From an uncultured Lachnospiraceae bacterium (GTDB lineage: Bacteria; Bacillota; Clostridia; Lachnospirales; Lachnospiraceae), in contig CACWHK010000001.1 in assembly GCA_902760755.1 (NCBI GenBank), positions 1 to 64,000 of the forward strand: a stretch of DNA of 64,000 nt, read 5' to 3'. A program made the translations under genes and the position numbers. Of this stretch, positions 72 to 1,175 are shown piece after piece. The notes under the pieces are model-generated. The model was not told where the DNA came from and made no database searches. It saw only the letters and a list, made by a program, of their open reading frames with translations. Positions within the stretch are counted from its first letter, which is position 1. Each line of letters starts with the position of its first letter.

Positions 72-100
72 TTGACATAAGTTAGGAGCTTCAGTATAAT
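72..100 (+). promoter_or_regulatory. consensus promoter of the tRNA cluster
   Basis: TTGACA at 72-77 and TATAAT at 95-100 are separated by exactly 17 bp: a perfect sigma-A/sigma-70 match. The predicted start lies just before tRNA-Pro at 124. It fits strong stable-RNA transcription of the cluster. Confidence 0.85.
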
Positions 101-427: not shown

Positions 428-527
428 GCCGTTTTGCAGAGCAAAACGGCACGTAGAAAACCGCGAAGCGGTTTTTCGTAGGTGAGTTTAGCGGTCGCAG
501 TCGCGTCAGCGACGGAGAGCGATAAAC
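428..527. repeat. tandem three-hairpin unit, copy A
   Basis: Three hairpins follow each other: H1 428-450 (10-bp perfect stem, loop AGA), H2 457-475 (AAAACCGC / GCGGTTTT, loop GAA), spacer containing GTAGGTGA, then H3 486-527. H3 has the layout 5 bp (GTTTA/TAAAC), nine positions per side that are mostly paired, 5 bp (GTCGC/GCGAC) and a 4-nt loop GTCA. Within the nine positions G491-A522, G494-G519 and G497-A516 are opposed. The same architecture recurs at 951-1059 and 1074-1175. Confidence 0.8.
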
Positions 528-532
528 GAGCC

Positions 533-578
533 CTGGCCGAAGGAAGCGCAGCGAAGTGAGCGCGATTCTTTTCGGCAG
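533..578. repeat. imperfect hairpin closing spacer A
   Basis: GCCGAA (536-541) can pair with TTCGGC (571-576), and GCGC (546-549) with GCGC (560-563) inside it. It directly follows unit A and ends 10 bases before tRNA-His. It may be a further hairpin of the same repeat system or a processing structure. Confidence 0.5.
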
Positions 579-587
579 CACATATAT

Positions 588-662
588 GGTGGGTATGGCG
601 CAGTTGGCTAGCGCGCCAGATTGTGGCTCTGGAGGCCGAGGGTTCGAGTCCCTCTACCCACC
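588..662 (+). tRNA. tRNA-His(GTG)
   Basis: GTGGGTA (589-595) pairs with TACCCAC (655-661). G588 opposite C662 is the extra G(-1):C73 pair that marks tRNA-His. The loop TTGTGGC between CCAGA and TCTGG gives anticodon GTG. No CCA is encoded. Confidence 0.95.
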
Positions 663-684
663 CGAGGTTAGTTGGAGGGGCTAT

Positions 685-861
685 TATTCACAGTCCCACA
701 TGGGCGGTCGTCGCCTTGCCGTGCTTCGCACGTCAAACGCACCTTTGGTGCTTGTGGCGCCGACACTCCATGCGGTCCCTGCTTCGCAGGTTCGCGGTAC
801 GCGGTCAGTGCCGCTTTCATGCAAGCATGAGCGGCCGGACCGCGTATTGCGACTGTGAATA
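685..861. repeat. 177-bp multi-branched palindromic element
   Basis: An 11-bp perfect outer pair (685-695 with 851-861) closes a set of perfect hairpins: CGTGC/GCACG (720-732, loop TTC), GCACC/GGTGC (739-751, loop TTT), CCTGC/GCAGG (778-790, loop TTC), GCGGTCC/GGACCGC (772-778 with 837-843) and GCCGC/GCGGC enclosing TCATGC/GCATGA (810-835). Two apices read GCTTCGC, the complement of the GCGAAGC apices in the other spacers. It fills the tRNA-His to tRNA-Gln gap and has no believable CDS. Confidence 0.7.
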
Positions 862-873
862 GTGACACTTTAA

Positions 874-945
874 TGGGTCATAGCCAAGCGGTAAGGCACA
901 GGACTTTGACTCCTGCACTCGTTGGTTCGAATCCAACTGGCCCAG
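874..945 (+). tRNA. tRNA-Gln(TTG)
   Basis: TGGGTCA (874-880) pairs with TGGCCCA (938-944) with a G-T wobble. The loop CTTTGAC between CAGGA and TCCTG gives anticodon TTG. Discriminator G945; CCA not encoded. Repeat spacers lie on both sides. Confidence 0.95.
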
Positions 946-950
946 GATGT

Positions 951-1059
951 GCCGTTATTTCGCGAAGCGAAATCACGGCGGAGATAGGAAAACTGCGATG
1001 CAGTTTTCCGTAGGTGAGGTCGACGGTCAGAGTCGCGATAGCGACTCAGAGCGGTGACC
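951..1059. repeat. tandem three-hairpin unit, copy B
   Basis: H1 951-979 (GCCGT/ACGGC then ATTTCGC/GCGAAAT, loop GAA), H2 987-1009 (10-bp perfect stem, loop GAT), spacer GTAGGTGA (1010-1017), H3 1018-1059. H3 keeps the 5-9-5-4-5-9-5 layout: GGTCG/TGACC, GTCGC/GCGAC, loop GATA. Its inner positions differ from copy A by paired changes: C-G becomes G-C at 1030/1047, and the G-A mismatch becomes A-G at 1023/1054. Bases 950-980 are repeated exactly at 1073-1103. Confidence 0.8.
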
Positions 1060-1073
1060 GAATCCTGATACAT

Positions 1074-1175
1074 GCCGTTATTTCGCGAAGCGAAATCACG
1101 GCGAAGGATTTGCGTCAGCAAATCCACAGACGAGTTCAGCGGCCGTAGCCGCCGATGCGGCGGAGGGCGATGAAC
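1074..1175. repeat. tandem three-hairpin unit, copy C
   Basis: H1 1074-1102 is an exact copy of the one at 951-979. H2 1106-1125 is GGATTTGC/GCAAATCC with loop GTCA. H3 1134-1175 again shows 5-9-5-4-5-9-5: GTTCA/TGAAC, GCCGC/GCGGC, loop CGAT, with G-A, G-G and G-A oppositions in the same places as copy A. Relative to copy A the outer T-A pair becomes C-G and the inner T-A pair becomes C-G, so pairing is kept while sequence changes. The flanks GAG...GAGC(C/T)CTGG match copy A. Confidence 0.8.

Follow-up and report, generated by a model that had tools for sequence, protein, structure and literature searches.

The window analysed here, a stretch of 64,000 nucleotides from an uncultured Lachnospiraceae bacterium (contig CACWHK010000001.1), begins with a run of tRNA genes for Pro, Gly, Arg, His, Gln, Lys and Leu, annotated on the plus strand between 124 and 1452. 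Upstream lies a promoter-like site (72-100, plus strand) that matches the consensus at 12 of 12 letters; judged from this consensus match, it could drive the tRNA run together with the hairpin units located in the Arg-His and Gln-Lys spacers. Scanning 1-1500 for terminator-like sites gave a single one (1.6 expected by chance), which lies inside tRNA-Lys; the tRNA spacers are free of them, and intrinsic terminators were rejected as an explanation of the units.

Three units are present, all on the plus strand, and in predicted folds each is composed of hairpins H1, H2 and H3. In unit 1, H1 (428-450) belongs to a perfect stem at 427-451 with the loop AGA. It is followed by H2 (456-477), which has a GAA loop and lies within a match to covariance model R2 at 454-536, by the linker GTAGGTGA (478-485), by H3 (486-527), whose conserved purine-purine oppositions appear in fold, sequence, model and alignment, and by the tail GAGCCCTG (528-535), which is predicted to pair with the linker. 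Unit 2 comprises H1 (951-979), an H2 of 10 bp with a GAT loop (987-1009), the same linker GTAGGTGA (1010-1017), H3 (1018-1059) and the tail GAATCCTG (1060-1067). Unit 3 comprises H1 (1074-1102), H2 with a GTCA loop (1106-1125), the linker ACAGACGA (1126-1133), H3 (1134-1175) and the tail GAGCTCTG (1176-1183). The linkers and the tails of units 2 and 3 are defined by sequence, and H3 in both by fold, sequence and model; the 3' tails belong to the element. H3 measures 42 nt in every unit and reads as 5 bp, nine positions, 5 bp and a 4-nt loop, then mirrored. RNA folding z-scores for units 1, 2 and 3 are -5.9, -7.7 and -5.2 for the whole unit and -3.5, -5.9 and -3.0 for H3 alone. A further H1-type hairpin occurs at 394-414.

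An earlier note on this DNA had placed the units and described the geometry of H3 correctly, and it was also right about the change from C498-G515 to G1030-C1047 and about purine-purine oppositions at the same three places of each H3. Its outer helices GTTTA/TAAAC and GTTCA/TGAAC pair as claimed, and GGTCG/TGACC does so with an innermost G-T. The proposed order of H1, H2, intervening sequence and H3 stands, the shared linker being limited to units 1 and 2.

The note recognised no named family, and Rfam agrees. At gathering score, the window yields tRNA and, far from the units, a GA-cis RNA (RF02987, 47707-47794, 60.1 bits, above its gathering score); nine other loci yield tRNA only. Over the units, a lax Rfam search of 380-1215 returned nothing above chance level, and no report of the element was found in the open-access literature searched. 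Clostridiales-1 RNA (RF01699) was rejected as their identity: its match in the neighbouring His-Gln spacer (685-861, minus strand) has no overlap with the units and reaches 29.5 bits against a gathering score of 48. That Clostridiales-1-like copy is bounded by the inverted repeat TATTCACAGTC ... GACTGTGAATA, as if it were a mobile element, and a better match elsewhere in the same genome (L002 1514-1655, 42.9 bits) is also below the gathering score.

A covariance model built from the three window H3 copies (R1) identified a fourth copy in the same genome, upstream of prfB (E = 5.7e-7). Across the genus, R1 matched in 8 of 61 genomes, with 20 places at E <= 0.1 in the seven other genomes. One of the 24 R1 places (G016:C20, E = 0.059) sits in coding sequence and was dropped as chance, which left an alignment of 23 copies. 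A model of H2 plus H3 (R2) was then made from 19 of them, leaving out L022, L027, L030 and L031, whose outer helix MAFFT had shifted. Applied to 18 genomes, R2 matched in nine, with G034 newly added, and gave 29 copies at E < 1e-4; a model made from 29 copies (R3) again matched in nine of 18 genomes. The other 43 genomes of the genus were searched with R1 only, under stricter filters. In total, 30 copies occur in 9 of the 61 genomes, at 11 places, with at most nine model matches per genome; the genomes are assemblies, many of them incomplete, and G026 carries most of the rarely shared places. The 30th copy, at rplO of G038 (22.6 and 31 bits in two model searches), was counted from its sequence and lies outside the 29-copy alignment, which holds 40 locus matches minus 11 with E > 1e-5 (opposite-strand echoes, partial tandem pieces and weak rows). 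A weak match in the tRNA run of G046 (L212, 25.9 bits) is absent from the genome-wide search and was not counted.

Wider searches returned little beyond these genomes. R1 on 120 genomes (at most 45 candidates scored in each, stricter filters) matched the window's own genome only, with no match in 119 other genera represented by one genome each. R2 on 397 genomes of the family, with only 11 candidates scored per genome, is weak negative evidence. The exact H3 pattern occurs in two contigs among 84,980 species genomes, those of G026 and G016, both 'Eubacterium sp.' MAGs and one of them from goat omasum; it is absent from viral contigs. BLAST of 428-540 against phages and plasmids returned nothing. 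A strict variant pattern (AGGTGTGRAG + CGRAACCCT) retrieved from the 61 genomes just three known copies and one chance match, and a looser variant had no match in the window.

The 11 places, at which gene names were tested, extend well beyond tRNA operons, a dispersal that the earlier note missed. Four are tRNA spacers (Arg-His, Gln-Lys, Ser-Asn and Asn-Cys). The others are the spacers between two fumarase genes, between secA and prfB, between rpmD and rplO, between cbiJ and cobB, between a BPD transporter gene and an NHL-repeat gene, and between a sugar-nucleotide-type nucleotidyltransferase and a dehydratase, together with one in-frame site inside iorB of G026. The element is oriented with the neighbouring genes at 11 of 11 places, and several units at one place share one orientation. 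A sign test gives about 0.002-0.004, for 8 or 9 independent events, and not the 0.0005 of 11, because some tRNA and fumarase copies may be local duplicates. The MIRU of mycobacteria are comparable in being short, gene-oriented repeats of operon spacers, but they have small reading frames of their own and insert where start and stop codons overlap.

H2 lies directly 5' of H3 in 23 of 23 copies inspected. It is a 10-bp helix with a 3-nt loop in 22 of the 28 distinct rows, the loop being GAA in 13 of 28. Most copies at tRNA, fumarase and prfB places have H1 before H2; the rplO, cbiJ-cobB, iorB and sugar-nucleotide copies lack it. The core of the element is H2 plus H3, about 80-85 nt, and H1 is optional; from the three-hairpin unit of the earlier note, H2 and H3 are retained as constant parts, but H1 is not. 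Linker and tail pair with each other in many of the predicted folds and so close H3. Purines oppose each other at the base of H3, where 35/81 is G.A in 17 of 28 rows and 36/80 is A.G in 25 of 28. Inward from this base follow 5 bp, position 42/74, 2 bp, position 45/71 (G.G in 14 of 28 rows), 2 bp, an internal loop, 5 bp and the terminal loop. The internal loop sets G-N-A over G-N-A, with 48/68 as G.A in 25 of 28 rows and 50/66 as A.G in 21 of 28. At the secA-prfB place of G006 (L085 4603-4966), four tandem units start 95, 93 and 93 nt apart, and the three downstream ones look degenerate. In the fumarase spacer of that genome (L084 5472-5551), a unit broken off within H3 stands directly before a complete one, like a partial tandem duplication; this partial unit looks degenerate too.

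Parts of this architecture resemble the REP sequences handled by TnpA-REP (RAYT) enzymes, which are also short hairpins with conserved stem mismatches, found mostly in spacers. On this reading, the element would be a hairpin of single-stranded DNA that carries a 5' GTAG tag and mismatches in its stem and is mobilised by a TnpA-REP-type Y1 (HUH) transposase. The frequent GAA loop of H2 would fit, as such a loop is very stable in DNA. GTAG stands directly before H3 in units 1 and 2 and CT occurs in the tail; passages of PMC8266576 describe E. coli TnpA-REP as requiring GTAG and a bulge and as cutting at CT beside the hairpin. In a search of six carriers, matches to Y1 domains (PF01797), of the REP kind or another, are present in G006, G021, G026 and G038, where the enzyme could act elsewhere, but the carriers G000 (88% complete) and G016 (100% complete) have none. 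Unlike REP, the element is present in few copies and has an obligatory second hairpin, only 10 of 29 linkers contain GTAG, and units sharing a place point one way instead of forming inverted pairs (BIME). Copy number, loss of GTAG, orientation and perhaps the gaps in PF01797 speak against REP membership, not against single-stranded DNA itself, and we regard a REP-like origin as unlikely. The main text of a REP survey (PMC3733652) contains none of the terms Firmicutes, Clostridi, Eubacterium and Lachnospir. In G006, contig C1 has eleven PF01797 matches, several in 154-residue frames and with near-equal scores, as of a multiplied IS200-type element. The model matches of this genome lie away from its PF01797 genes, and the ends of IS200-type elements were rejected as an identity.

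The fold itself is well conserved. An alignment of 28 distinct rows has 96.6% of 686 helix cells paired and a double change in 21 of its 25 pairs, and its covariation score is 0.672 (shuffled partners 0.245; slid partners at most 0.181). Model-made alignments favour the structure of the model, and in the 29-copy alignment some type II rows have their outer helix off by one column; the 19 copies aligned with MAFFT also have 96.6% of its 467 cells paired, with double changes in 18 of 25 pairs. The covariance-model search that the earlier note had set as a test found further copies in the genus that keep their pairing; neither of the two outcomes named there as refuting was seen. Orthologous copies repeat the pattern: 149 of 150 helix cells are paired in the six prfB copies (double changes in 11 of 25 pairs), as are 166 of 172 in seven Arg-His copies from six genomes (13 of 25 pairs).

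H3 copies at the same place in different genomes share an identity of 0.71 (39 pairs), those at different places within a genome 0.58 (45 pairs) and all others 0.56. As exceptions, the fumarase and Asn-Cys copies of G006 are mutual nearest, as are the Ser-Asn and Asn-Cys copies of G026; hence, places do not always evolve independently.

Compensatory change had been read in the earlier note as a mark of selection. This step is not automatic, since template switching is described in PMC8794818 as able to create and to maintain or mend stems without selection. By this route, the copies could be decaying insertions without function, their stems kept perfect by template switching at quasi-palindromes, and the near-perfect palindromes of H1 and H2 would suit such a process. 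Position 42/74 of H3 behaves differently. Its counts are A.G 13, G.A 7, A.A 3, G.G 1, A.T 1, T.A 1 and gap 2, so that A.G/G.A exchange accounts for 20 of 26 cells, and 3 of 5000 shuffles do as well. The six orthologous prfB copies have A.G in three cases and G.A in three. Template switching yields complements and therefore cannot exchange A.G for G.A, in orthologues or elsewhere, nor would it keep the G.A and A.G around the internal loop, and the objection is met for H3. The oppositions at 45/71, 48/68 and 50/66 are conserved, with covariation no better than in shuffles, partly because these positions hardly vary. The fold, including its purine-purine positions, is retained at orthologous places, and the absence of function is largely excluded for H3; for the family, we consider it very improbable. 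Selection on a folded molecule, either RNA or single-stranded DNA as the earlier note had it, is supported by the exchange at 42/74 and by the prfB copies. On the gene-sense strand, G-T outnumbers A-C (22 against 9 cells, which are non-independent), and the sequences therefore suggest that the folded strand is likely the gene-sense one, as RNA or as sense single-stranded DNA.

Comparison of filled and empty sites shows that the element inserts. Within iorB of G026, the insert amounts to 30 codons with the frame open, and the Pfam POR domain begins after it, at residue 58. The gene is present in 19 of 61 genomes; of the other 18, the 13 inspected at this position all lack the insert. Next to the transporter-NHL spacer, the upstream gene ends of G016 and G000 are 99% and 97% identical to that of G026, and both spacers are without the element. 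The fumarase, sugar-nucleotide and cbiJ-cobB spacers of relatives gave no model match (L148-L158, L160-L162), and L159, outside the model search, has a short spacer in the alignment. Between rpmD and rplO, the spacer is short and holds a purine-rich ribosome binding site in G006, G049, G046 and G033; the element stands 5' of that site in G021, G016 and G038, and different sequence of similar length, which gave no match, is present in G026 and G060. The secA-prfB spacer is short in G038, G046, G034 and G021, while that of G050 has other hairpins and no match. G023 has an Arg-His spacer of about 6 nt in its tRNA run. The same places are thus mostly empty in the relatives examined. Since most genomes of the genus lack it, the element is dispensable.

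Duplication of the target is only suggested. Flanking direct repeats agree at 9 of 9 letters for the sugar-nucleotide copy and 8 of 9 for the iorB copy, against a cross-site maximum of 7 that four other copies do not exceed. An 8/9 repeat at rplO of G038 joins the rpmD end to letters near rplO and was rejected as not credible. By eye, the element has no terminal inverted repeats, and its exact ends are approximate. In the rpmD-rplO copies (L201, L200, L199) and in L083, it ends just 5' of a purine-rich ribosome binding site and its left end is purine-rich too.

The single orientation could stem from an asymmetric purine-rich target. Extended further, the element may be a mobile two-hairpin RNA module that works within the transcript, has a conserved purine-purine recognition face and spreads, guided by its target, to the 5' side of purine tracts resembling ribosome binding sites, hence always gene-sense and with a put-like read-through activity of its own. 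Such an activity would make the element harmless or useful on arrival. We give this combined proposal a small chance.

The read-through component is modelled on the putRNA of phage HK022, described in PMC9378689 as an RNA of about 70 nt with two stem-loops and non-canonical pairs that acts in cis. By analogy, the nascent two-hairpin RNA of the element might bind RNA polymerase and suppress pausing or termination through the operon. Its length of about 80-85 nt, its two adjacent hairpins with conserved non-canonical positions and its gene-sense placement in operons, including tRNA runs, would agree with this. The likeness, however, is one of plan only: put is a phage element near promoters, whereas the copies studied here sit mid-operon and close relatives do without them. 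Taken alone, a put-like role seems distinctly unlikely to us.

An effect on processing or stability of the transcript between two genes is a tentative possibility and the more conventional one, given that the element sits between a gene end and the next ribosome binding site. Passages of PMC10969869 describe ERIC copies as able to expose an RNase E site, and Correia copies as cut by RNase III, and ERIC, Correia and BOX resemble the present family as small dispersed folding spacer elements, some of which act on the transcript. They belong to different lineages, and MITE-type terminal inverted repeats were not seen in the present family. Against cleavage, the H1 and H2 stems of only about 10-12 bp are short for RNase III, and the iorB copy is intragenic, where a cut would destroy the message. 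That copy also invites comparison with the Rickettsia palindromic elements (RPE). As outlined in sections of PMC10969869, RPE are roughly 150 bp long and frequently inserted in frame in genes; the present element does so at 1 of 11 places, lies mostly in spacers and is about half that length, with a conserved two-hairpin fold.

On balance, we hold as probable, with modest confidence, that this is a dispersed, co-transcribed RNA element kept for its fold, in which the purine-purine positions form a recognition surface and whose effect is local to the operon transcript. The element, H2-H3 and often H1, would enter short operon spacers in gene sense, and once a gene; an inserted copy would be transcribed together with its neighbours, the transcript being the molecule that folds. 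The G-A opposition at the H3 base, the A.G/G.A and G.G positions in the stem and the G-N-A over G-N-A loop may then form the face on which a protein or RNA polymerase docks. The consequence would be confined to the operon transcript, as processing or stability between two genes or as read-through by RNA polymerase, and could make the insertion tolerable and, at some places, worth keeping.

Sequence alone is the usual basis for judging dispersed bacterial palindromes. This family shows, side by side, that the element inserts, keeps one orientation and has long held a defined fold in which a non-Watson-Crick position undergoes A.G/G.A exchange. It allows the passage from mobile repeat to retained RNA element to be tested directly, and provides a control where covariation in stems might be put down to template switching.

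Two observations concern the tRNA spacers. Unit 3 (1103-1184 of the window) is identical over 82 nt between G000 and G026 (L093 5016-5097), unlike the other copies of these genomes, which differ; a recent transfer of that stretch may account for this. The Arg-His spacer of G038, G006, G026 and G046 (L013, L015, L019, L212) also holds a hairpin array of another kind, which has GATGCCG and several GCGAAGC loops.
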